50,423 nt of DNA, taken from positions 1 to 50,423 of the forward strand of contig DASYCE010000021.1 in the NCBI GenBank assembly GCA_036500345.1. Reading direction: 5' to 3'. This document shows positions 32,992-49,121 of this stretch, one piece after another. Both the position numbers and the translations under genes were made by a program. The notes under the pieces are model-generated. The model saw only the letters and a program-made list of their open reading frames with translations. It did no database searches and had not been told where the DNA came from. This DNA is from Gemmatimonadales bacterium (GTDB taxonomy: Bacteria > Gemmatimonadota > Gemmatimonadetes > Gemmatimonadales > GWC2-71-9). Positions within the stretch are counted from its first letter, which is position 1, and the number at the start of each line of letters is the position of its first letter.

Positions 32992-35643
32992 TCAGTGATC
33001 GTCGCCGTCGCGGTCCTTGTCGGGGACGTCGACCGTCATCGGGAAGAAGAGCGAGGCCCGGGTCGCGGGGTACTTCGCTCCCCATCCCCTGGCGTCCTGC
33101 CAGAGGATCCGATTGAGCTTGGCGGTCGGTGCGGCGTCGGGAATGTCGAATCGCATCTTCGCCGAGGCGAGCGCCGCCTGGCGCTGGGCGCCGTGCAGGC
33201 GCGCCGGCGCCGGATTCACTTCGTAGATCGACTGCGCCGGTTCGATCGCCGTGTACGGGTGCAGGTCGGGCTTCTCCTTGGGAGTGATGAAGGCGTCGCC
33301 GAGATCGGTCGCCGCGAGATCGAAGATCGACAGCGCCGGGAGTCCGAGCATCAGTTCGATCGTCTTGAGCAGCGACGGATGATTGTAGAAGGTGGAATCG
33401 ACGGCACCTCGCCGCGTGTACGGCGAGATCGCGAGTGCCACGGTGCGATGACCGTCGACATGGTCGACGCCGTTCTGCGCGTCGTCCTCCACGACGAAAA
33501 TCGCCATATCCTTCCAGAAGCCGGAATGACTCAACGCGTCGACCACCTGCCCCACCGCGAGATCGTTGTCGGCCACACATGCCTTTGGCGTGCAGTCTCC
33601 CGCGCCGGTCCCCGCGGTGTGATCGCTCGGCAGCTGCAGCAGCACCAGATTCGGCATGCTGTCGCCGGCTTCCCACTGCGCCAGCGATCGCTTGAACATC
33701 TGCGCGCGGACCACGTCGGGAACGGCGAGGGTCCACGACGGGAAGTCGCGCACCAGGATGTGATCGAGCGACGGAATCGGCGAAGTGGTGTGAAATGGCG
33801 GATCGAGCCGCACTTCGCCGCCGGTGTGGTACTGCGCCAGCAATGCGCTCCGCACCGGGCCGGCGCTCTGGTCGCGCGGCTCGGGAGCGAATTCGCCGAA
33901 CACCTCGACGCTCTTCCCTTTCGAGATTGCATCGTCCCAGATGAAGCCGCCGTTGGAATACGCCAGCGGATCGGAACCGTCGTAGGGATAGCTGCGTCCC
34001 TCATAGAGTGGCCAGAGGGTGTACTCGGTTTCGTTCGCCTGAGTCAGCCACTGATGTCCATCGGCAGAATTGCCGCCTTCGGCGAAGAAGCGGTCGAGCG
34101 TGACGAACTGTTCCGAGAGCGCATGGGCGTTGGGCGTGACGCTCCGCCCGTACATCACGAACTGCGAATCGTTGTCGCCTCGCGGGAGATCGCCGAGGAT
34201 CTGGTCGTAGGTGCGATTCTCGCGGATGATGTAGACGACGTGGTGGATCAGCGACGGTTCGCCGGGGCGTTCGGGAACGGCGCGTGCCGCGACATTGGCC
34301 CGCGCCGCAGCAGCACCGGCGCCACTCGCGAGCGGCAGGCGATTGTTCTGCGACACGGCGACGGTGAACGCCGCGAGCTGGCCGCGCGTCGGCACGGGAA
34401 CGACATTCACCGCACCCCGAACGGCATGAACGTACCGGCCGGTCATTCCGGCATTCGCTCCGGTCCCGGAGCCGACACCGAGCAGCGTGCCGATTGCGAG
34501 GTATTTCCCGTCGCCGCTGGCGTCGAGCGTCGACGGATACCACGCCGTCGGAATCATCCCGCGCAGCGACGCTCCTCGTGGTGCCACCGCGACATCATAG
34601 ATCGCCACGGCGTTGACGCCACCGAGTGCCACGTACAGCGTGGCGCCATCGGGCGAGAGCGCCAGCGCGGTCGGCGCGAGACCCGCCGCGCGCGACCGGA
34701 ACGGCGCCACGACGATGGAGCCGAGGAGTGAATCACCGCGCGAATCGATGACGGAGATCTCGTCGCTGTTGCCGTCGGTCACGTAGATCCGGTCGCGTCG
34801 CTGATCCCAGACGATATCGGTGGGATGGCGCCCGACGGTAATGCGCGATGAGACCTCGCCGGTGCGCAGATCGACGCGAGCCACGGTCCCCGCCATCGCG
34901 ATCCCGCGGGGATCGATCCGCACCGCTTCGGCGCGCGCTTCGCAGCATTGCTTCGCCGACATCTCGGTTCCCTGCGGCTGCTTGCCGGCGAGTTCGGTGA
35001 CCCATCCCGTCGCACCATCGTCGGCGATCACGGCACCGAGGGGTGCAACACCGAGTGCCACGGTGCGAATCGGTGCGCCGCTCGCCGCGTTCACGACGGC
35101 GAGTTGATCGTCGGCGGTGAGCGGGAGGACCGCGACGCGAACGCCTCCCGCACCGGCACCCGCCGCCACCGCCGGCGAACCCGCCATGTCGTGACCGAAT
35201 CCACCCAGCGGATGGAGGCCATCCGCACCGATCGCAGTGAGTTGCGCAATCGATCCGGCGTTCGCCGCCGTCCCGGCGAGAGGGTGCGCGCCGGCGGGAA
35301 CGCGCCCGACCGACGACAGCAGGAAGCGATTCGCGGCGGTATCCGCGGCGATGCCGTAGATCCCGGTGCGGCCACTGATCTTCCAGTGATCGGCGACGCG
35401 ATTATCGACCCACGCCATCCGATAGACGTCGCTGCCGACCGCGACGACGATCTCGCTCGAGTTGCGAGCGAAGCGCAGGCCGGTCACGCGCCCCTGAAAG
35501 ACTGTTTCGGCGCCGGCCGGCGTGATCCGCTGATTGGTGGCGATGACACCGGGGTCGGCAACACCGCGTTGCGGCCCCGCTGCCGCCTGAATGCCGTTCT
35601 GCGGGATCGAGGCGACCTGGAGGAGGATGTGGAGGATCAGCAT
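32992..35643 (-). CDS. Secreted YVTN-type beta-propeller / phosphoesterase fusion
   Basis: This 883-residue protein has two parts. Residues 40-430 are a beta-propeller of YVTN/YncE type (HPTDIVWDQRRDRIYVTDGN, ALALSPDGATLYVALGGVNA). Residues about 465-880 are a phosphoesterase domain (PF04185, phospholipase C/acid-phosphatase-like). VVYIIRENRTYDQILGDLPR carries the metal-binding Glu-Asn and nucleophile Thr. AEGGNSADGHQWLTQANETE, IFVVEDDAQNGVDHVDGHRT and ALAISPYTRRGAVDSTFYNH give the remaining ligands. The N-terminus (LILHILLQVASIPQNG) is a weak export signal. The likely role is removal of phosphate from extracellular phosphoesters, with the propeller binding a substrate or surface. A small membrane protein gene lies just upstream, possibly in one operon. 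Confidence 0.87.
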   Translation of the reverse strand: MLILHILLQVASIPQNGIQAAAGPQRGVADPGVIATNQRITPAGAETVFQGRVTGLRFARNSSEIVVAVGSDVYRMAWVDNRVADHWKISGRTGIYGIAADTAANRFLLSSVGRVPAGAHPLAGTAANAGSIAQLTAIGADGLHPLGGFGHDMAGSPAVAAGAGAGGVRVAVLPLTADDQLAVVNAASGAPIRTVALGVAPLGAVIADDGATGWVTELAGKQPQGTEMSAKQCCEARAEAVRIDPRGIAMAGTVARVDLRTGEVSSRITVGRHPTDIVWDQRRDRIYVTDGNSDEISVIDSRGDSLLGSIVVAPFRSRAAGLAPTALALSPDGATLYVALGGVNAVAIYDVAVAPRGASLRGMIPTAWYPSTLDASGDGKYLAIGTLLGVGSGTGANAGMTGRYVHAVRGAVNVVPVPTRGQLAAFTVAVSQNNRLPLASGAGAAAARANVAARAVPERPGEPSLIHHVVYIIRENRTYDQILGDLPRGDNDSQFVMYGRSVTPNAHALSEQFVTLDRFFAEGGNSADGHQWLTQANETEYTLWPLYEGRSYPYDGSDPLAYSNGGFIWDDAISKGKSVEVFGEFAPEPRDQSAGPVRSALLAQYHTGGEVRLDPPFHTTSPIPSLDHILVRDFPSWTLAVPDVVRAQMFKRSLAQWEAGDSMPNLVLLQLPSDHTAGTGAGDCTPKACVADNDLAVGQVVDALSHSGFWKDMAIFVVEDDAQNGVDHVDGHRTVALAISPYTRRGAVDSTFYNHPSLLKTIELMLGLPALSIFDLAATDLGDAFITPKEKPDLHPYTAIEPAQSIYEVNPAPARLHGAQRQAALASAKMRFDIPDAAPTAKLNRILWQDARGWGAKYPATRASLFFPMTVDVPDKDRDGDDH

Positions 35644-38748: not shown

Positions 38749-38777
38749 TTGCGTACTGCTGCAAGCGGGCCTAACGT
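38749..38777 (+). promoter_or_regulatory. Promoter-like box of first DUF305-LVIVD module
   Basis: TTGCGT (38749-38754), a 17-base spacer and TAACGT (38772-38777) lie 83 bases before the DUF305 start. A near-identical arrangement, TTGCGC-N17-TAGCGT, precedes the second module at 43087-43115. The shared TTC following both -10-like boxes adds support. It could be a sigma-70 or alternative-sigma promoter. Confidence 0.45.
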
Positions 38778-38860
38778 TCGCGCCTCCCCCGAGTAGATGG
38801 TCCGCTCACACCGGCTGGTGGCAGGTGATCGGCGCCATTTCGCCGACCAAGAGGTGTCTC

Positions 38861-39517
38861 GTGATCCGGTTGCGTCATCGATTCGTTGCTGCGGGCATTG
38901 CGGCGCTCGCATTCACGTTTTCCGTTCCGCAACTCCAGGCACAATCGACGACGGCCGCCGTACCCGATCGCTATCCGGTGTCGAAGGCCGATGCGGATTT
39001 CATGCAGGGGATGATCATGCATCACGCCCAGGCGGTGGAGATGGCGCGGTGGGCGCCGACGCATGGCGCGAGTCAGGCGATCCAGACGCTCTGCGCACGG
39101 ATCGCGGTGTCGCAGCGCGACGACATCTTCTTCATGCAGAACTGGCTCCGCGAACACAACTTCGCCGTGCCGGATACCAATGGTCACATGCCGATGGCGT
39201 CGATGCAGGGAATGTCCGGGATGTCGATGAGCTCCGACACGGCGCCGATGCTGATGCCGGGGATGCTCACGCCGGCGCAGATGAAGATGCTCGACGCATC
39301 GCGCGGCCCCGATTTCGACCGCCTCTTCATGACGTTCATGATCCAGCATCACAATGGTGCGCTGCAGATGGTCGATACGCTCTTCGCTTCGCCGGCCGGC
39401 GGGCAGGACGACGACATCTTCAAGTTTGCCACGGCGGTGCACGCCGACCAGACCGCGGAGATCGCCCGGATGGAAGCGATGCTCCAGGGGAAGTCGGTCA
39501 CCGCCGTTGATCCATGA
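38861..39517 (+). CDS. Exported DUF305 (ferritin-like, metal-binding type) protein
   Basis: This 218-residue exported protein belongs to the DUF305 family, a four-helix bundle with His/Met-rich metal sites; one studied member, CopM, binds copper. A signal peptide (LRHRFVAAGIAALAFTFSVP) precedes QAQST. The paired family motifs are FMQGMIMHHAQAVEMARWAP near residue 50 and FMTFMIQHHNGALQMVDTLF near residue 160. The middle is Met-rich (HMPMASMQGMSGMSMSS, and PMLMPGML). AGAGG before the GTG at 38861 decides the start. The gene is followed, 52 bases later, by an LVIVD propeller gene; the same pair occurs at 43223. Metal binding is known for the family; copper here is inference. Confidence 0.87.
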   Translation: MIRLRHRFVAAGIAALAFTFSVPQLQAQSTTAAVPDRYPVSKADADFMQGMIMHHAQAVEMARWAPTHGASQAIQTLCARIAVSQRDDIFFMQNWLREHNFAVPDTNGHMPMASMQGMSGMSMSSDTAPMLMPGMLTPAQMKMLDASRGPDFDRLFMTFMIQHHNGALQMVDTLFASPAGGQDDDIFKFATAVHADQTAEIARMEAMLQGKSVTAVDP

Positions 39518-39569
39518 TCCCGATTTCACTCACCACTGTTGTCCCGCTGTCCCTTAAACGGATTCGTCC

Positions 39570-41870
39570 ATGACATCACTGCATCGAACGTCCGCGCGGT
39601 GGACCACCGCACTCCTTTCGCTCGCCGGCGTAGCGCTCTACGTCTCGGCGTGCGGTCACTCCTCGACGCAGGCATCGACCGCGCCGACACCGGCGGCGGG
39701 CTCGGGCCCGATGTCGCAGATGTCGCCGCTGCCGACGCCTGACATGTCGGCGATGGACGCGATCGCCGCGCCGTCACCCGATCCGCGCGTTGGCCTCGCA
39801 CCCGGCGAATGGGACGCGGCGACGAAGACGATCACCAAGCCCGCGGCCGAGGCGATCTGGAACATGAACATGGTGTCGCACACGCCGCCGAGCCCGGCTT
39901 CGGCGGGGGCGACGCACTCCGATCTCGCCTTCGAGGGGAAGTACGTCATCCAGGGGAACTACAACGGATACGAGGTATGGGATATCTCGAATCCGAGCCA
40001 CCCGACGCTCGCGACCGGGTATAGCTGCCCGGCGTCGCAGGATGATATCTCGGTGTGGGGACATCTCCTCTTCGTCTCGGCAGAAGCGACCAACTCGCGC
40101 ACCGATTGCGGCACCGGCGGCGCGCCGGGCGCGGTCAACAAGGACCGCATCCGCGGCGTGCGCATCTTCGACATCACCGACATCGCGCATCCGAAGGTGA
40201 TCACCGAAGTGCAGACCTGCCGCGGGTCGCACACGCACACCGTGGTGACCGACCCGAACGACAAGAACAACATCTACATCTACATCTCGGGAACGTCGGG
40301 CGTGCGCCCGGCGGCGGAGCTGGCGCGCTGCATCCCTGATCCGCGCGATCCGAACACCGCGCTCTTCAACATCGAAGTGATCAAGGTGCCGTTGGCGCAC
40401 CCCGAGCAGGCGGCGGTGGTGAGTCACGCGCGCATCTTCCAGGATGCAGCGACCGGTGGTGATCTCGTCAACCGGATCGGCTCGCATGGCGCACCGGCGT
40501 CGGATGTCGGCGCGGCAGCTGGTGGACGTGGTCGGGGTGCAGGTGCCGGCGCGGGTGCCGCACCGACGGTGTTCGTCCGTCCGGCTCCCGGCAACATGAC
40601 CGGCGCAATCGCCGAGATTGCTCCCGGCGTCACCGATGATGCGCGTCAGAAGACCGCTGACTCACTGACCGCCGCGGGCTACTTCGCGCTCAACCGTGGT
40701 GGCTTCGGCGGCCGCGGTGGTGCTGGTCGCGGTGGCCGCGGTGGTGGTCGCGGCAACGTGCCGGCGACGCACGACGACTCGCTGACGATCTGGAGCGAGT
40801 ACGCGCTGTCGAAGGTGACGCCGCTCACTGCGACGTCGAGCAAGGCCGATTCGATGAAGTGGTCGAAGTCGACCGACTCGCTCCGCGCACTCGGCTACGC
40901 CAACATTCCGTTCCCGCCGACGCCGCGCGGCACGCTGACCCAGTGCCACGACATCACGGTGTATCCGAGCGTCGGCCTCGCCGGCGGCGCCTGCGCCGGG
41001 ATGGGCCTGCTCCTCGACATTCACGATCCGGCGAACCCGCGCCGCATCGATGCCGTCGCCGACACCAACTTCTCGTTCTGGCACTCGGCAACGTTCAGCA
41101 ACGACGGGTCGAAGGTCCTCTTCTCCGATGAGTGGGGTGGCGGCGGGCGTGCCTACTGCCGCGCCACCGACCCGAAGAACTGGGGCGGCGACGCGATGTT
41201 CGACATCGTCAAGGGGAAGATGGTCTTCGAGGGGTACTACAAGATGCCCGCGGCGCAGACGCAGGCGGAAAACTGCGTGGCGCACAACGGCTCGCTGATT
41301 CCGGTCCCCGGGCGCACCGTCATGGTGCAGTCGTGGTACCAGGGCGGGATCTCGGTGTTCGACTGGACCGATCCGACGCACCCGAAGGAGATCGCCTTCT
41401 TCGATCGCGGCCCGCTCGATGTCCCGGCGAACAATGGGACGAGCGACGCAGGCTTCTGGTCGTCGTACTGGTACAACGGCTACATCGTCGGGTCGGAGAT
41501 TCAGCGCGGCATGGACATCTTCGAGCTGAAGCCGAGCCCGTATCTCTCGCAGAACGAGATCGACGCGGCGAAACTGGTGAAGTTCGACTGGCTCAACGTG
41601 CAGGATCAGCCGCACTTCGTCTGGCCGGCGAACATCGCGGTGCCGCGCGCCTACCTCGACCAGCTGGTTCGCTGGAACGGGATCTCCGGCTCGCGTGCCG
41701 CGGCGATCAAGACCGAACTCGATGCGGCGGACGCCATGTCGGGCGGGGCCAAGAAGGCCGCCTTCAGCAAGCTCGCCGGTGAGCTCAACGGCGATGCCGC
41801 GAGTGCCAAGGATGGCGCCCGGGTCCGCGCGATGGCTGCGTCGGTGACGCAACTCGCCAACGCGAGCTGA
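39570..41870 (+). CDS. LVIVD-repeat beta-propeller lipoprotein
   Basis: This 766-residue surface or periplasmic lipoprotein has lipobox VSAC with Cys28. It contains LVIVD-type propeller strands such as GYEVWDISNPSHPTLATGYS, RIRGVRIFDITDIAHPKVIT, GGISVFDWTDPTHPKEIAFF. Eight Cys (SCPASQ, TDCGTG, QTCRGSHTH, ARCIPD, QCHDIT, GACAGM, YCRATD, ENCVAHN) and His-containing turns (SHTHTV, CHDITV, FWHSATF, VAHNGS) match the second paralogue one by one. Residues 310-330 and 373-398 are low-complexity Gly/Arg inserts (GGRGRGAGAGAGAA, RGGFGGRGGAGRGGRGG). The C-terminal 80 residues are helical. It is the partner of the DUF305 gene just upstream. Role unknown; a metal or redox site at the propeller centre is my inference. 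Confidence 0.85.
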   Translation: MTSLHRTSARWTTALLSLAGVALYVSACGHSSTQASTAPTPAAGSGPMSQMSPLPTPDMSAMDAIAAPSPDPRVGLAPGEWDAATKTITKPAAEAIWNMNMVSHTPPSPASAGATHSDLAFEGKYVIQGNYNGYEVWDISNPSHPTLATGYSCPASQDDISVWGHLLFVSAEATNSRTDCGTGGAPGAVNKDRIRGVRIFDITDIAHPKVITEVQTCRGSHTHTVVTDPNDKNNIYIYISGTSGVRPAAELARCIPDPRDPNTALFNIEVIKVPLAHPEQAAVVSHARIFQDAATGGDLVNRIGSHGAPASDVGAAAGGRGRGAGAGAGAAPTVFVRPAPGNMTGAIAEIAPGVTDDARQKTADSLTAAGYFALNRGGFGGRGGAGRGGRGGGRGNVPATHDDSLTIWSEYALSKVTPLTATSSKADSMKWSKSTDSLRALGYANIPFPPTPRGTLTQCHDITVYPSVGLAGGACAGMGLLLDIHDPANPRRIDAVADTNFSFWHSATFSNDGSKVLFSDEWGGGGRAYCRATDPKNWGGDAMFDIVKGKMVFEGYYKMPAAQTQAENCVAHNGSLIPVPGRTVMVQSWYQGGISVFDWTDPTHPKEIAFFDRGPLDVPANNGTSDAGFWSSYWYNGYIVGSEIQRGMDIFELKPSPYLSQNEIDAAKLVKFDWLNVQDQPHFVWPANIAVPRAYLDQLVRWNGISGSRAAAIKTELDAADAMSGGAKKAAFSKLAGELNGDAASAKDGARVRAMAASVTQLANAS

Positions 41871-41903
41871 ACGGCAGCAGCACTGTAGTAGCGGGTGATA
41901 GAG

Positions 41904-41933
41904 CGAATGGCCGCCAGCAATGGCGGCCATTCG
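41904..41933. terminator. Hairpin after first DUF305-LVIVD module
   Basis: CGAATGGCCGCC (41904-41915) pairs perfectly with GGCGGCCATTCG (41922-41933) around a six-base loop, 33 bases after the LVIVD stop. It lies before the convergent small gene ending at 41976 and probably ends transcription of both. Confidence 0.65.
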
Positions 41934-41975
41934 TGCGTTCGGGGCCTTCGCCACTCCGCTTCAGTGGTGATGCAA

Positions 41976-42326
41976 TTAGCGTCCTCGAACAGCGAGACCG
42001 ACCATGTAGCCGAGAAACGCACCGATCGCCGCGAGCAGGAGTATGCCCCCGCCCCCGAAAGGACCACTGTCACGATCGTGGAAAGTGACGTAGCCGATCG
42101 CGGGCAGTGCGACCGCACCGATCGCCGCCCCAATGGCCGGCGCATTCGAAGCGTGGCGAGCGTCGACATCCGGGTGTCGAGGAACCGCCGGAACTCCCTC
42201 GAGGCGCGCGGCCGCTCGGAGCTGCCAGTCATATCGACCGGGCGATGGAACTGACTGCGCTCCTGCCCTGGCGCCGATCAGCGTGAACGCTGCGATCGTA
42301 AACGAACGTCTGAGATAGATGTGCAT
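41976..42326 (-). CDS. Small exported glycine-rich protein
   Basis: This 116-residue protein has a signal peptide (RRSFTIAAFTLIGARAGA, cut before QSV). A polar segment follows (GRYDWQLRAAARLEGVPAVP), then two short hydrophobic Gly/Ala-rich helices: APAIGAAIGAVALPAIGYVT and GGGILLLAAIGAFLGYMVGL. These are glycine-zipper-like and may insert into a membrane. No family is identified. It lies between the two DUF305-LVIVD modules and 22 bases after the methyltransferase stop, so the two may be one transcript. Confidence 0.55.
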   Translation of the reverse strand: MHIYLRRSFTIAAFTLIGARAGAQSVPSPGRYDWQLRAAARLEGVPAVPRHPDVDARHASNAPAIGAAIGAVALPAIGYVTFHDRDSGPFGGGGILLLAAIGAFLGYMVGLAVRGR

Positions 42327-42348
42327 CAGCCAATCGCGTCGAGAGGAC

Positions 42349-42990
42349 TCAGTAGATCCCCGGAATGAACCGCGCCACGCGCGATGAATACTCGCGGTAC
42401 TGATCGCCGAACGCTTCGGTGAGCACTGTCTCTTCCGCCCGTGCCCGGATGTCGGCGCCGAGAAGCATGAGGACCACGGCGACCCACATGATCGTGGTGG
42501 GAATCCAGATCGCAGAGCCCAGGGCGAGGAGATCGAGACCGGCGTAGATCGGATGGCGCACCAGGGCGAACGGTCCGCCGGTGGCGAGCTCGTGATCGCT
42601 CTCGATCCGTGCCTGGAAGCGCCACGACCGGAAGTGAAGGAGCGCCCAGCACATCAGCCGCGCGCCGACCGCTATCACCAGTGCACCGACCACCTGTTGC
42701 CCGGTAAACCAGTGCGGCACGCCGGTGCCGAAGACCGCGCTGCCAATTCCCATGTACATCACGAAAAAGCCGATGGCATGGATCGCGACGAGGAGCCGGG
42801 AGAAGCGCGCGGTCGTGGGGACTGCCGCGGCGGGTTGGGCGGTGGCCGGCTCTGACGTGGTCGGCTCCGCCGCTGCCGCGGGATCGGGCTCCGTCGACCG
42901 GCTCAGTGATCGGGTGATCCCGAAGGCGGCCCAGAAGGCGCCGTGGACGGCATAGATCGCGATGTCGAGGGTGATCCTGACGGTAACCAT
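42349..42990 (-). CDS. ICMT-like isoprenylcysteine/phospholipid methyltransferase family membrane protein
   Basis: This 213-residue membrane protein has about five helices. The C-terminal catalytic part has the signature of the ICMT/PEMT/NnrU-like superfamily: GGPFALVRHPIYAGLDLLAL (RHP-x-Y-x-G, SAM-binding), and RARAEETVLTEAFGDQYREY with the E-E pair and terminal SSRVARFIPGIY. An Ala/Pro/Glu-rich loop lies between helices 1 and 2. Family members methylate prenyl-cysteine, lipids or small thiols; here the substrate is unknown. The start at 42990 is the first ATG before the hydrophobic helix; a longer version to 43149 would cover the promoter of the neighbour. It sits between the two DUF305-LVIVD modules. 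Confidence 0.8.
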   Translation of the reverse strand: MVTVRITLDIAIYAVHGAFWAAFGITRSLSRSTEPDPAAAAEPTTSEPATAQPAAAVPTTARFSRLLVAIHAIGFFVMYMGIGSAVFGTGVPHWFTGQQVVGALVIAVGARLMCWALLHFRSWRFQARIESDHELATGGPFALVRHPIYAGLDLLALGSAIWIPTTIMWVAVVLMLLGADIRARAEETVLTEAFGDQYREYSSRVARFIPGIY

Positions 42991-43086
42991 CCTCAAATGT
43001 CGCCCGGCAATGGAATCGGGCAACTCCCTGAACCGGGAACCGGATCGGGGCAACCTCGCTTCCAGTTGCAGCGTCCAACCGATGCA

Positions 43087-43115
43087 TTGCGCTGAAATGG
43101 ATACTGCCGTAGCGT
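43087..43115 (+). promoter_or_regulatory. Promoter-like box of second DUF305-LVIVD module
   Basis: TTGCGC (43087-43092), a 17-base spacer and TAGCGT (43110-43115) lie 107 bases before the DUF305 start codon. It matches the box before the first module (TTGCGT-N17-TAACGT) in ten of twelve hexamer positions, with equal spacing. Confidence 0.45.
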
Positions 43116-43222
43116 TCTGAAACCGCGACTTAGCAAGTCCCGTACGCAATCCACTGGCACCGATGCGTCCCGAGCAACATGATCTAGGCGCGCGGTACCA
43201 TCGAAGATTCCGGAGGAATAGC

Positions 43223-43870
43223 GTGAACAGGAGCGGGCGTTTCTACGCGGCGGTTCTTGCCGCGGTCGTCGGATTGGCCGGTACCCGGTGGCAGCCAGCC
43301 GCGGCGCAGGCAGCGTCGACCGCGCCTTCGGCGAGCCCCCGGCCGCCGGTCTTTCCGCAGCTCTATCCGGTGACCCCCGAAGACGTGAATTTCGTGACCG
43401 GGATGATCGCACATCACTCGCAGGCGATCGTGATGGCCAAGTGGGCGCCGACGCACGGTGCGAGCGAGGACATCCAGACCCTCTGCTCCCGGATCATCAA
43501 CGCGCAGACGGACGAGATCGCGCTGATGCAGCGATGGCTGCAGGACCGCCATCAGCCGGTTCCCGAGGCGAAGCCGGTGCCGATGAAGATGATGATGAAC
43601 GGTGTCGAGACCGAAATGCTCATGCCGGGGATGCTGACCGACGAGCAGATGAAGCAGCTTGATGCCGCGCGTGGAACCGATTTCGACCATCTCTTTCTTC
43701 GTTTCATGATTCAGCATCACCGTGGCGCGGTGCAGATGGTCACCGATCTCTTTGCCGCGGGCGCAGGGCAGGATGAAGGGGTCTTCAAGATGGCCAACGA
43801 TATCCAGGCCGATCAGACCACGGAAATCAACCGGATGGCCAGAATGTTTCTCACCATGCCAGGGGTATGA
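43223..43870 (+). CDS. Exported DUF305 protein, second copy
   Basis: This 215-residue paralogue of the product of the gene at 38861 has signal peptide RFYAAVLAAVVGLAGTRWQP, cut near AQA. Family motifs: FVTGMIAHHSQAIVMAKWAP and FLRFMIQHHRGAVQMVTDLF. Compared with copy 1, the spacer has fewer Met (KPVPMKMMMNG, EMLMPGML). The start is GTG 43223 with CGGAGGA upstream; the ATG at 43163 would lack a proper signal peptide. Its stop codon overlaps the ATG of the following LVIVD gene (ATGA), so the two are translationally coupled, more tightly than in the first module, where the gap is 52 bases. Probably a periplasmic metal-binding protein. Confidence 0.87.
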   Translation: MNRSGRFYAAVLAAVVGLAGTRWQPAAAQAASTAPSASPRPPVFPQLYPVTPEDVNFVTGMIAHHSQAIVMAKWAPTHGASEDIQTLCSRIINAQTDEIALMQRWLQDRHQPVPEAKPVPMKMMMNGVETEMLMPGMLTDEQMKQLDAARGTDFDHLFLRFMIQHHRGAVQMVTDLFAAGAGQDEGVFKMANDIQADQTTEINRMARMFLTMPGV

Positions 43871-45828
43871 CGATGACACTCTCGATGCACCGAACGGTTC
43901 TTGGACTCGCGGTCGCAGCGGCTGCGGTTCTCACCATCCCCGCGGCGGGGCAGGCGCCGAATCCCGACCCGCGGGTCGGATTGCGCGGCGGCAAGCTCGA
44001 CACCAACGGCGTGGTCGAGCCCGCAGCGATGGCCGCGTGGAACATGCGGCTCCTCTCGAATACCACGCCGCCGGCGCCGTTTCTCGGCAAGACCAACGCC
44101 GACCTCGCCTTCTCCGGGAAGTACGTGATCCAGGGGAACTACGGCGGGCCGCTGCTGTGGGATATCTCCGATCCCGCACATCCGGTGCTGGCAAAGACCG
44201 ATCTCTGCCCCGCGTCGCAGGACGACGTCTCGATCTACAAGAACCTGATGTTCGTGTCGAGCGAGTCGAATACCGGCCGCCTCGATTGCGGCGCCGGCGG
44301 TACCGGCCGCGATTCGGTATCGTCGGAGCGGATGCGCGGCGTGCGCATCTTCGACGTCAGCGACATCAACAATCCGAAGTACGTCGCCAACGTCCAGACC
44401 TGCCGCGGTTCGCACACGCACACCGTGGTGAATGATCTGCACGATCCGGCAAACGTATACGTCTATGTGTCGGGACAGGCGCAGGTGCGGCCGTCGTCGG
44501 AACTCGCTGGCTGCGTGAGTGATTCGCCCGACAAGAATCCCAATTCCGCGCGCTTCCGGATCGAAGTGATCAAGGTGCCGCTGGCGCATCCGGAGCAGGC
44601 GGCGATCGTCAACTCGCCGCGCATCTTCAACGATCTTGCCGCCCCGCCGACCCATGGCGAAGCGGCCCTCGAGATCGCGGCGCTCGACTCCGCGCGGCGC
44701 GTCGGCGCGTTCATCGCCGAAATCGGGACGCAGCACATCGTGCTCCCGCCGGCGTTCGTGAAGCCGCAGCTCGACAGCGTGGTCAAGGCACGCGGCGGCA
44801 CCGGCGCACCGACCAAGGCCGACAGTGATGCCTTCCGGGCGTACCTGCCGACCTTCATCAACAAGCTCACCGGCGGCGGCGGCGGCAAGCCGACCGGTCC
44901 GGACCAGTGCCACGACATCACCGTCTATCCGTCGATCGGGTACGCCGGTGGTGCCTGTGCGGGATACGGACTCCTCCTCGACATCAAGAACCCGGCGAAC
45001 CCGGTGCGCGTCGATGCGGCGTCGGATTCGAATTTCTCGTACTGGCATTCGGCGACCTTCAACAACGACGGCACCAAGCTCCTCTTCTCGGATGAATGGG
45101 GCGGTGGCGGCGCGCCGAAGTGCCGCGCCAGCGATCCGAAGGACTGGGGTGCCGACGCGATCTTCACGATGAAGGACGGCAAGCTCACGTTCCAGAGCTA
45201 TTACAAGATGCCGGCGGCGCAGACCTCGCTCGAGAACTGCGTGGCGCACAACGGCTCGCTGATTCCGATCCCCGGCCGCGACGTGATGGTGCAGGCGTGG
45301 TACCAGGGTGGCGTGTCGGTGTTCGACTGGACCGATGGCGCGCATCCGAAGGAGATCGCCTTCTTCGATCGCGGGCCGGTCGATTCGAGCTCGTTCCAGA
45401 TGGGCGGCTCGTGGTCGGCATACTGGTACAACGGCCGCATCTACTCGTCGGAAATCGCGCGCGGCCTCGACATCTTCGAGTTGACGCCGAGCCCGATGCT
45501 GTCGGAAAATGAAATTGCTGCGGCGCGCACGGTGCACGTCGACCAGCTCAACGTCCAGGACCAGCCGAAGTACAGCTGGCCGGCGACGTTCGCGCTGTCG
45601 GGCGCGTACCTCGACCAGCTCGAGCGGGACCACGGTCAGTCGGCGGCGAAGATCGCCTCGGCGCGCACCGGCCTGGCGAGTGCGGAGAAGTTGCAGGGTG
45701 CCGCACGGAAGGCCGCGTTGACGAAGCTGGCAACGCAGCTGCACAGCGATGCCACCAGCGCCACCGACCAGACGAAGGCGCATACCTTCGCGACGTCGGT
45801 GCAGGAGCTGGCAGCCGCGACGAAGTAA
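43867..45828 (+). CDS. Secreted LVIVD-repeat beta-propeller protein, second copy
   Basis: This 653-residue paralogue of the product of the gene at 39570 has a Sec signal peptide (RTVLGLAVAAAAVLTIPAAG), but no lipobox Cys, so this copy is probably soluble in the periplasm while the first is lipid-anchored. Propeller motifs include GGPLLWDISDPAHPVLAKTD, RMRGVRIFDVSDINNPKYVA and GGVSVFDWTDGAHPKEIAFF. All eight Cys and the His-rich turns of the first copy are conserved (LCPASQ, LDCGAG, QTCRGSHTH, AGCVSD, QCHDIT, GACAGY, KCRASD, ENCVAHN). The low-complexity Gly/Arg insert is reduced to TGGGGGKPTG. It overlaps the DUF305 stop by four bases and is followed by a strong hairpin. Confidence 0.85.
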   Translation: MTMTLSMHRTVLGLAVAAAAVLTIPAAGQAPNPDPRVGLRGGKLDTNGVVEPAAMAAWNMRLLSNTTPPAPFLGKTNADLAFSGKYVIQGNYGGPLLWDISDPAHPVLAKTDLCPASQDDVSIYKNLMFVSSESNTGRLDCGAGGTGRDSVSSERMRGVRIFDVSDINNPKYVANVQTCRGSHTHTVVNDLHDPANVYVYVSGQAQVRPSSELAGCVSDSPDKNPNSARFRIEVIKVPLAHPEQAAIVNSPRIFNDLAAPPTHGEAALEIAALDSARRVGAFIAEIGTQHIVLPPAFVKPQLDSVVKARGGTGAPTKADSDAFRAYLPTFINKLTGGGGGKPTGPDQCHDITVYPSIGYAGGACAGYGLLLDIKNPANPVRVDAASDSNFSYWHSATFNNDGTKLLFSDEWGGGGAPKCRASDPKDWGADAIFTMKDGKLTFQSYYKMPAAQTSLENCVAHNGSLIPIPGRDVMVQAWYQGGVSVFDWTDGAHPKEIAFFDRGPVDSSSFQMGGSWSAYWYNGRIYSSEIARGLDIFELTPSPMLSENEIAAARTVHVDQLNVQDQPKYSWPATFALSGAYLDQLERDHGQSAAKIASARTGLASAEKLQGAARKAALTKLATQLHSDATSATDQTKAHTFATSVQELAAATK

Positions 45829-45855
45829 CGATCAGCAGCTTGGTCGGCAGACAAG

Positions 45856-45891
45856 AACCCGGGGGTCGCGGAGTACCGCGGCCCCCGGGTT
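45856..45891. terminator. Strong hairpin after second DUF305-LVIVD module
   Basis: Bases 45856-45871 pair with 45876-45891 (16 bp, AACCCGGGGG at the base, one T-G pair) around an AGTA loop, 27 bases after the LVIVD stop. It also lies near the stop of the convergent sortilin-like gene, so it is probably bidirectional. The T-run is poor. Confidence 0.7.
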
Positions 45892-45914: not shown

Positions 45915-48900
45915 CTAGCGCCCGGTACCGCAACCCGTGACGGGAACGGTCACAGGCAGCAAGTCCCCTCCCCCAACTCGTTTCCGCTCGGCGTCGAGGT
46001 CCCCGATTCGCTGAACCTGGACTTGATTCAACTTGACAAGCGCCCGTTGGAGATCAGCGCAATTACCGTTGACCGCCGCAAGCACGCTTGCTGTCGGCAT
46101 GACCTCGCCGTATTCCATGTCAGTGAGTCGACGAGCAAGATCGCGATTGAGGGAACCGAATCCTCCTTGCGGTGCGTTGGCGAGCAGTGTGAGCGTTGAA
46201 TCGAACGACCGCGCCGCTGCGCGAAGCGCAGGATCACCACTCTTGATGTCGGACGCCAACCAGTCGTGAAAATGGGCGACTGTCATGAATCCCTTGTTGC
46301 TTGCCTCCAGCCCTGCACTCATCCTCCGCTCGAACGCGACCTGCGCCACGATCGCGGCCTGCGACACCGGGACACGCGGATCCGGCGTGACAGCAAAGGT
46401 CCGGGTGAGGTGCTGATCGCCGGCACTCAAGGTCACGGTGTACCGCCCCGGTGCGATCATCGGCCCCATCGGCACAGTGCGCGGCGTGTTACCCGGAATC
46501 GCATGCCACGAGACGGTGAATTCGGTGTAGTCGAGCAGCGTCCCGGTGTAACCGTAGTTCAACACGCTCGGCGACGGATAGCGGAGATCCCACGCGAAGC
46601 GATGCATCCCCGGTTCGGTGGAGAGAATTGTCGCCGGCTTGATCCAGTACGGCGGCACGTTGATCATCGTGGTGTCGGGCGGAGGCGCCGCATTACTGAA
46701 CTCGCGGATCACGTGCCCGGCGGGATCGGAGAAGGTGACGGTGATCGGACCGCGCACCGGCGCCTTGAGGAAGTAATCGATGATCACCCCTTCCGGCGGA
46801 TTCTGCCCCACCGTCACCTCGGGCGGAAGCGGTGTGTCCTGGGTGTTGTCCCAGCGGGCATGCGTCGCGCTCTCGGGGCGATAGAGGAAGGCATCACCGG
46901 TGGCCGCCACGACATCGTGCGCCTGCCGCAGCGGCGTCACGTCGTCGAGAATCCAGAAGCCGCGGCCGTACGTCGAGATCACCAGGTCGCTCCCGTGCAC
47001 CGTCATATCGCTGATGACAGTGGTCGGCAGATTGATCTGCAACGACTGCCAGTGATCGCCGCGATCGAACGAGACCCAGGTACCGGTCACGGTGCCGGCG
47101 TAGAGCAGATCGGGATTGACCGGGTCCTCGCGCATCACGCGCGCAGTGCCGCCGTCAGCGATGCCGTTGTCGATCTCCTTCCAGGTCGTGCCGAAGTCGG
47201 CGGTGCGATAGAGGTGGGGATGATTGTCACGCGACAGCAGCGCCACGTAGGCGGTGCCGTCAACGCTGTGTGAAGGGTCGATGGTGTTGATCCCGCCTGC
47301 CGGCATTCCCGGCGGCGTGACGTCGTGCCAGGTGAGGCCGCCATCGCGGGTCATCTGCACCAGTCCGTTGCCGGTGCCGACCCAGATTTCGCCGGCCTTG
47401 AGCGTCGACGGCGCGAGTGACTGGATCGAACCGCCGACCACCGGTCCGCTGCGACGACCGGGAACGGCGATCTGCGTGGAATCGGTGCCGACAGTGTGGC
47501 GGACGGTGAGATCGGGCGAGAGGTGACGCCACGTCCTGGCGCTGTCACTCGATGCCATCACGTATTGCGCGCCCATGTAGAGCAGATGCGGATTCTGTGG
47601 CGAGAAGACCAGCGGCGGCGCGCCGCCGAACCGATCGGTGGGCGTCGGCGTGTAGAGGATCGCAATCTCGCTGGTCTTCCGGTCGAACCGCTGCAGCACA
47701 TGGTACCACCCCTGATCGTACACCCAGCGCGGGTTGAGCGGATCGGTCGCGATGAATCCGTTCTCGAAGCCGCCGACCGGAGTCCAGTCGCTGGGACGGA
47801 TCTGGCCGAAGTCGCTCCGGCTCACCACGCAGGCGTCACCGCTGTCCTGCTGCGGACCGCAGACGTGATACGGAAAATCGTTGTCAGTCGACACTCGGTA
47901 GAACTGACCGTTCCGCATGTTGTACCAGCCGTTCCACGTCTCGCCGCCGTCGACCGAAATCGTCGGCCCCTGATCGGCACCGGCGATCATCCGCCGAGGG
48001 TTGGTCGGATCAATCCACAGCAACCGGATATCCGCACCGCTCGGCGCTCCCATGTACGAAACGAAATGCTTGCCGCCATCGAGCGAGCGGTACATCGACG
48101 TGCCCATCAGGTAGGCGACGTCGGGATTCTTCGGATCGGCGTAGATGTGACCGCCGGCGCTGGCTATGGCGGAGGTGCCGAGGGTCCATGACTCGCCGCC
48201 ATCGTCGGAACGATAGAGACCGCCCGGACCGCCTCCGCCGCGCGCGCCGCCGCGGACTTCGCCGTAGAGGCGGTTGCCGTGCGTCCCCGATGCAACGGCG
48301 AGGGCGAAGCCTGCGGCGCCCGGCGGAAGCCCCTTCCCACCGATCGGCTTCCACGTCACGCCGCCGTCAGCCGATCGATAGATGCCAGTCGACGCGCCGC
48401 CGCTCGGTGCCGCTGGTGCGCCGCCACCGCGACCACCGGCGCCCGCGCGCTGCATCGTGGCGTAGATGATCGATGGATCGTCGAAGTCGTAGCTGAGATC
48501 GGAGGCGCCGGTGGCGTCGTCACCGAGAACGCGCGTCCAGTCGTGACCACCGTCGGTCGAGCGATACACGCCGCGCTCGTGATCACCGGGAGGTTCGGCG
48601 CCACGCCCACCCTGCACCGCCACGAGCACAGTATTGGCCTGCCGCGGATCAACGACGATCGCGCTGGTGTATTGCGAGTTGTGGAGGCCGATGTTGGTCC
48701 ACGTCGCTCCGGCGTCGGTGGACTTGTAGACGCCGTCACCGGGAGTGAACGACCAGCCGGACGAATTGCCGGTGCCGACATACACTGTGTTCGGCGACGA
48801 CGGCGCGACGGCAACGGCGCCGACCGACGCAACGTGGACGGAATCGAAGATCGGATTCCAGACGGTGCCGCCGTCGGTGGTCTTCCAGACGCCACCTTCC

Positions 48901-49121
48901 GGAAGACCGACGTAGTAGGTGTTGGGATCTCCCGGAATGCCGGCGACAGCTGCCACGTATCCCGAACGATTGGGACCGATCGATCTCCATCGCATACCGG
49001 CGTAGTAGTCGGGAGTGATCCCCTGCGCGGACGCGATGGCTGCAACGGTGACGGCAAGCGCGCCGGCGAGAGCGATGGAACGGGATGAAGCGCGGTACGG
49101 ACGGGTGAGCGGCGGGATCAC
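45915..49121 (-). CDS. Large secreted sortilin/BNR-type beta-propeller protein
   Basis: The 1068-residue exported protein begins with signal peptide RSIALAGALAVTVAAIASA, cut before QGI. Residues 35-740 hold many BNR/Asp-box-like turns of VPS10/sortilin-type propellers: GGVWKTTDGGTVWNPIFDSV, GVYKSTDAGATWTNIGLHNS, GIYRSADGGVTWKPIGGKG, GLYRSDDGGESWTLG and LVQMTRDGGLTWHDVTPPG. The C-terminal 250 residues include a beta-sandwich-like region (GPITVTFSDPAGHVIREFSN) and a helical end. A Gly-rich insert (GAGGRGGGAPAAPSGGAS) lies near 235. GTG at 49119-49121 with GAGGAG upstream sets the start. Family members are common in Gemmatimonadota and other phyla; they bind or hydrolyse unknown ligands. It is divergent from a related gene at 49297. 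Confidence 0.85.
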   Translation of the reverse strand: MIPPLTRPYRASSRSIALAGALAVTVAAIASAQGITPDYYAGMRWRSIGPNRSGYVAAVAGIPGDPNTYYVGLPEGGVWKTTDGGTVWNPIFDSVHVASVGAVAVAPSSPNTVYVGTGNSSGWSFTPGDGVYKSTDAGATWTNIGLHNSQYTSAIVVDPRQANTVLVAVQGGRGAEPPGDHERGVYRSTDGGHDWTRVLGDDATGASDLSYDFDDPSIIYATMQRAGAGGRGGGAPAAPSGGASTGIYRSADGGVTWKPIGGKGLPPGAAGFALAVASGTHGNRLYGEVRGGARGGGGPGGLYRSDDGGESWTLGTSAIASAGGHIYADPKNPDVAYLMGTSMYRSLDGGKHFVSYMGAPSGADIRLLWIDPTNPRRMIAGADQGPTISVDGGETWNGWYNMRNGQFYRVSTDNDFPYHVCGPQQDSGDACVVSRSDFGQIRPSDWTPVGGFENGFIATDPLNPRWVYDQGWYHVLQRFDRKTSEIAILYTPTPTDRFGGAPPLVFSPQNPHLLYMGAQYVMASSDSARTWRHLSPDLTVRHTVGTDSTQIAVPGRRSGPVVGGSIQSLAPSTLKAGEIWVGTGNGLVQMTRDGGLTWHDVTPPGMPAGGINTIDPSHSVDGTAYVALLSRDNHPHLYRTADFGTTWKEIDNGIADGGTARVMREDPVNPDLLYAGTVTGTWVSFDRGDHWQSLQINLPTTVISDMTVHGSDLVISTYGRGFWILDDVTPLRQAHDVVAATGDAFLYRPESATHARWDNTQDTPLPPEVTVGQNPPEGVIIDYFLKAPVRGPITVTFSDPAGHVIREFSNAAPPPDTTMINVPPYWIKPATILSTEPGMHRFAWDLRYPSPSVLNYGYTGTLLDYTEFTVSWHAIPGNTPRTVPMGPMIAPGRYTVTLSAGDQHLTRTFAVTPDPRVPVSQAAIVAQVAFERRMSAGLEASNKGFMTVAHFHDWLASDIKSGDPALRAAARSFDSTLTLLANAPQGGFGSLNRDLARRLTDMEYGEVMPTASVLAAVNGNCADLQRALVKLNQVQVQRIGDLDAERKRVGGGDLLPVTVPVTGCGTGR

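Follow-up and report, generated by a model that had tools for sequence, protein, structure and literature searches.

A near-obligate gene pair of Gemmatimonadota encodes a DUF305 protein and a seven-bladed propeller with a candidate metal site

Two neighboring genes in a Gemmatimonadales genome, one encoding a DUF305 protein and the other a propeller protein, belong to a pairing that is near-obligate across the phylum Gemmatimonadota and whose two genes are co-evolving. The families themselves are known; the near-obligate pairing is undescribed in the literature that we found, which included no paper on DUF305 with LVIVD proteins or on DUF305 in Gemmatimonadota. DUF305 proteins form a large family, and their physiological partners have seldom been identified; a near-obligate partner present throughout a phylum turns a metal binder of obscure role into a testable donor–acceptor pair. 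The pairing also links the propeller of Sb-PTE (the haloalkylphosphorus hydrolase of Sphingobium sp. TCM1; PDB 5hrm, 5ioj), which degrades synthetic organophosphates, to a natural family that is widespread in a common, little-studied soil phylum.

The window, by which we mean the whole stretch of 50,423 nucleotides that was analyzed, contains two DUF305–propeller units, identified through open reading frames and Pfam profile searches (Table 1). The two genes of unit A are separated by 52 bases; those of unit B overlap at ATGA, which combines the propeller start codon with the DUF305 stop codon. The stretch between the units contains two genes on the minus strand. DUF305-A likely starts at GTG 38861, with GTG 38825 as the alternative. 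The start of DUF305-B is probably GTG 43223, which stands behind a GGAGG sequence, the longest frame beginning at ATG 43163. By inspection, all four proteins carry export signals, that of propeller A including a VSAC lipobox at C28. A first-pass annotation of this DNA had recorded the two-gene unit twice, one propeller as a lipoprotein and the other with a plain signal peptide, and eight cysteines together with the motifs SHTHTV, CHDITV, WHSATF, and VAHNGS as common to both propellers. All of these observations were confirmed; moreover, the eight cysteines and the motif histidines are retained in a third propeller copy and are invariant across 66 propeller relatives. The third copy belongs to a further DUF305–propeller unit on another contig of the same genome, and all strong DUF305 genes of that genome, three in number, are accompanied by a propeller. 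Two weak DUF305-like matches on one other contig have no propeller near them.

Other features of that annotation had to be revised. Units A and B had been described as a tandem duplication, and their propellers and DUF305 proteins are 49% and 55% identical, respectively. Each gene nonetheless resembles genes from other genomes more closely than its neighboring copy, and the two copies are therefore old paralogues rather than the products of a recent tandem event. One DUF305 protein had been called Met-rich and the other Met-poor, whereas both are Met-rich (21 Met in 181 residues and 17 in 168). The divergent localization of the two propellers had been taken as meaningful; lipobox-like N termini occur in 48 of 77 related propellers, so both kinds of N terminus are common and the contrast is not supported as a meaningful one.

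Table 1. Positions of the paired genes and of the conserved propeller B motifs in the window
Feature	Position	Strand	Description
DUF305-A	38861..39517	+	Exported four-helix protein rich in His and Met, CopM-like; mature domain preceded by a signal peptide
Propeller A	39570..41870	+	766-aa lipoprotein; seven-bladed, eight conserved Cys, C-terminal helical region
DUF305-B	43223..43870	+	Exported CopM-like protein; PF03713 E 9e-43; CopM model 99.1 bits
Propeller B	43867..45828	+	653 aa; plain signal peptide (by inspection)
Blade 3 motif H183-T-H185 (SHTHT)	44413..44421	+	Invariant; aligned with Sb-PTE H258
Blade 4 motif H349-D350 (CHDITV)	44911..44916	+	Invariant
Blade 5 motif H394 to D409-E410 (WHSATF...SDEWGGG)	45046..45096	+	Invariant; Sb-PTE H389, E407
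Blade 6 H461 (VAHNGS)	45247..45249	+	Invariant; possible Sb-PTE H475 counterpart, alignment ambiguous

The propeller is present in 331 of 395 Gemmatimonadota genomes. We fetched 80 propeller loci with their record titles, nearly all labeled Gemmatimonadota, and found a DUF305 gene in 66 of the 70 with enough upstream sequence. Both queries were then run on thirty related genomes: 26 contain the two genes, and the other four have neither a strong DUF305 match nor a full propeller. All propeller-carrying genomes of this set (26/26) thus have a strong DUF305 gene. Within them, the propeller lies directly downstream and on the same strand for 58 of 60 strong DUF305 genes, typically with about 130 bases between the domain edges. 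Viewed from the propeller, DUF305 is upstream of 60 of 71 copies, the exceptions being tandem second propellers, lone extra copies, and fragments. No strong DUF305 gene was found among 40 propeller-negative genomes, where the best match was partial (41.6 bits). The latter set includes at least one genome twice, and the presence/absence association calculated over 26 and 39 distinct genomes, ignoring phylogeny, gives a Fisher value of 1e-18. The gene trees of the 71 pairs agree (mirror-tree r of 0.76 versus a null maximum of 0.26), and all nine re-pairings of partners within genomes lowered the fit. Together, these data establish a near-obligate pairing of two co-evolving genes, and the conservation of gene neighborhood outside the window, proposed at the outset as a check, is very strong. 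No natural DUF305–propeller fusion was found, nor was a recurrent third neighbor among the 80 loci, the best being a VPS10-like protein at 8 of 80.

Relative to the PF03713 gathering score of 27, the DUF305 proteins of the window score 130.7 bits (A; E 6e-38) and 146.3 bits (B). The CopM equivalog-domain model NF049983 (cut-off 90) is passed by DUF305-B and narrowly missed by DUF305-A, at 82.6 bits. The predicted fold of DUF305-B is a four-helix bundle that matches 2qf9 and CopM (VIA Z of 21.0 and 18.9, respectively, with rmsd of about 2 Å; CopM and DUF305 structures include PDB 5fej, 5ffc, 2qf9, and 3bt5). Two HH motifs (H84-H85 and H185-H186) and several methionines are invariant in DUF305 relatives; paired HH motifs, conserved methionines, and export are, like the four-helix fold, shared with CopM. 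CopM binds Cu(I) with a KD of about 3.7e-16 and protects Synechocystis from copper (PMC4335983). Homology in sequence and predicted fold suggests that the window DUF305 proteins are CopM-like, copper-type binders, in keeping with the His/Met metal binder first proposed. The genetic settings differ: in copMRS (PMC4335983), a two-component system accompanies CopM, whereas the window DUF305 genes are encoded with a propeller and have no recognizable copper genes nearby.

The model of propeller B (pLDDT 89, pTM 0.89) has seven blades at about residues 60 to 540, an insert in blade 4, and C-terminal helices at residues 547 to 651. The C-terminal helical region is absent from a Nonomuraea relative and from one of two related contigs deposited as faecal phage. 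By profile score, the window propellers are only borderline LVIVD proteins: the label originally given to both is marginally upheld for copy A (PF08309, 21.3 bits against a gathering score of 20.2) and fails for copy B, which has no match at E 0.01. The Nonomuraea protein reaches 52.4 bits with the same profile. Choice-of-anchor B and LVIVD proteins share a repeat signature and the C-terminal blades with the window propellers as a weak match, and the TIGR04312 (choice-of-anchor B) scores of 52.4 and 54.6 bits lie under the cut-off of 100. As judged by profiles and by the predicted fold, Sb-PTE is the nearest solved relative. It is the top solved Foldseek match of the model (E 9e-11) and the sole match below E 0.1 in a profile search of solved-structure sequences (E 0.002). 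Alignment to four Sb-PTE-family sequences with hhalign gave probabilities of 98 to 99%, from shallow profiles and with E-values that refer to a single comparison. A phmmer search with only propeller B as query yielded no relative of solved structure. VIA-align of the propeller returned WD40 and generic propellers at Z near 29 to 30, with Sb-PTE absent among the best 50 rows, and such a list does not discriminate between propeller families.

The five invariant histidines of the propeller family all lie where strand B begins, in blades 3 to 6. By motif and blade register, they are therefore gathered at the same turn, not scattered, as the first-pass annotation had anticipated for a metal site. 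The P value of this clustering, 3e-5, is only indicative because the windows were chosen after the motifs had been seen. The metal ligands of Sb-PTE, which we take to be E201, H258, H389, E407, and H475, have fitting residue types at all five positions of the 5ioj sequence and are kept in a Novosphingobium relative. Blade register and global hhalign, as opposed to coordinates, equate H394 with H389, E410 with E407, and either H183 or H185 with H258; local hhalign displaces the blades from residue 240 to residue 470 and lacks the blade-5 match, so that these equivalences are provisional. The two proteins share seven blades in the same order, at about 20% identity over the profile alignment, and C419 and C458 align with Sb-PTE cysteines in the blade register. 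The propeller differs from Sb-PTE in having Q118/D120 in blade 2, with no match to E201, in its added blade-4 insert and helical C terminus, and in having no activity on record. H461 belongs to the same blade as H475 of Sb-PTE, where the Sb-PTE loop is longer and the alignments differ, and this correspondence is uncertain. The propeller is homologous to Sb-PTE in fold and in ligand type, and from these alignments it appears to carry a metal site at its His ring.

The same correspondences would also suit an Sb-PTE-like hydrolase that uses Mn, Zn, Fe, or a similar metal, with DUF305 as a co-secreted partner (an assembly factor, an inhibitor, or other) and not a donor. The Sb-PTE metal centre has been described as binuclear, according to a title cited in PMC11656708, and a Paraburkholderia homologue of Sb-PTE likewise has a DUF305 neighbor. 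We consider this hydrolase unlikely. Because E201 is not kept, we do not call the propeller a phosphotriesterase; no DUF305 gene was found in the searched flanks of Sb-PTE itself or of its Novosphingobium and Variovorax relatives; and the neighboring genes in the 80 loci give no hint of a substrate. A structural or binding protein, in which His and Cys only stabilize the fold and shared regulation maintains the pairing, would accord with the literature found, which records no activity for LVIVD-type propellers, and with the abundance of VPS10-like and other propeller genes in these genomes. Such a role is quite improbable given that the five invariant histidines concentrate at one turn of blades 3 to 6 and partly coincide with the metal ligands of a solved homologue.

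The reading that we favor, tentatively, is a secreted two-protein metal system, in which a disulfide-stabilized metalloprotein propeller has a CopM-like partner that loads or guards its site. The propeller would be a distant, seven-bladed relative of Sb-PTE, and a ring of His, Asp, and Glu at one end of its axis would hold one or two metal ions. DUF305, made together with the propeller, would supply or protect this metal outside the cytoplasm. We infer metal binding at the ring, metal transfer by DUF305, contact between the two proteins, and any catalysis from the pairing and the homologies described above.

By analogy, DUF305 homology and the curA operon of Myxococcus xanthus suggest copper as the metal. 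The copper-induced curA operon (MXAN_3417/3416) has a DUF305 lipoprotein gene beside a lipoprotein gene with PQQ_2 repeats, and Snov_0990/0991 of Starkeya novella joins a DUF305 gene to a YVTN-annotated propeller (PMC3707914, PMC6527743). Both operons resemble ours in that a DUF305 gene adjoins a repeat-propeller gene; they differ in that their propellers are annotated as PQQ_2 and YVTN types. In the available parts of these papers, the operons are not proposed as a system. Counting against copper, recognizable copper genes are absent beside the pair in the 80 loci, the flanks of which contain no specific P-type ATPase, multicopper oxidase, or MerR patterns (loose cupredoxin, CsoR, Sco, and CxxCH patterns were uninformative). 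The first-pass annotation had proposed a metal, perhaps copper, system: CopM homology supports DUF305 as a copper-type binder, whereas copper is not established, since the flanks of the 80 loci lack copper-efflux and multicopper-oxidase signatures and the closest propeller of solved structure is a hydrolase whose metal centre is binuclear. A new kind of secreted copper enzyme, with copper bound at the axial His ring of the propeller and loaded by an adjacent, dedicated CopM-type chaperone, seems doubtful to us.

As a control, we sampled ten plasmid DUF305 genes without such a propeller (from Actinomycetota, Deinococcota, Cyanobacteriota, and Janthinobacterium), several of which adjoin copC, Nramp, SCO, copper oxidase, or metal-ATPase genes. 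DUF305 thus does not need the propeller and is generally a metal-context protein, the propeller partner being particular to some lineages. These contexts, the protective role of CopM, and the curA operon would be consistent with a copper sequestration pair, in which both proteins bind excess extracellular copper, neither is an enzyme, and the His ring serves for storage or sensing. The lack of recognized copper genes beside the pair makes sequestration improbable in our estimation, and the presence of several copies per genome (three here), together with invariant acidic residues, would seem more in keeping with an enzyme-like site than with a soft-ligand store.

Adjacent DUF305 and propeller genes also occur outside the phylum. 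In Nonomuraea gerenzanensis (Actinomycetota) they are divergently oriented, as they are on the two cellular-looking contigs that were deposited as faecal phage; a scan of viral contigs found no relative. On a Paraburkholderia megapolitana plasmid, the Sb-PTE homologue, a distant relative of the propeller, is followed by DUF305, in reversed order. Three gene orders for one pairing favor function over inherited order alone. Three loci labeled Gammaproteobacteria (L014, L024, and L025) were considered as spread to another phylum; the label was treated as wrong because class-level relatives of the L025 genome include genomes that share contig places with the Gemmatimonadota set. The Nonomuraea propeller protein also gives a weak methanethiol-oxidase match (E 0.009).

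At 8 of the 80 propeller loci scanned, the sequence flanking the paired DUF305 and seven-bladed propeller genes contains a relative of the VPS10/sortilin-type gene; the sheer abundance of this family may possibly be the sole cause of this recurrence. The isoprenylcysteine-methyltransferase-like gene is not conserved next to the pair. A gene with the same type of annotation lies close to a DUF305 gene and a metal ATPase gene on a Tolypothrix plasmid (L172). The Gemmatimonadota propellers are predicted to carry an extra C-terminal helical region, which is lacking from the Nonomuraea gerenzanensis protein and from contig L142.

Features in and around units A and B
Feature	Position	Strand	Remark
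YncE/lactonase-like propeller region and phosphoesterase (acid phosphatase/PLC-like) domain	32992-35643	-	single protein
Isoprenylcysteine-methyltransferase-like gene	42349-43149	-	between units A and B
C-terminal helical region, propeller B	45505-45819	+	residues 547-651; confident prediction
VPS10/sortilin-type BNR propeller gene	45915-49121	-	adjoins unit B

L142 (MT837812.1) and a second pair-carrying record, L143 (MT835605.1), come from human faeces and were deposited as "Bacteriophage sp."; the genes around the pair are of cellular appearance, and both records probably represent bacterial contamination. Separately, a 466-aa frame (L157, G341:C105:112-1308) contains three DUF305-like stretches, in a genome without the propeller.

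The propeller also occurs in metagenome bins labeled Gammaproteobacteria (loci L014, L024, and L025). Because the class-level relatives of the L025 genome include the Gemmatimonadota set, this label is probably wrong. At L014, L025, L061, and L069, one DUF305 gene is common to two tandem propeller genes.
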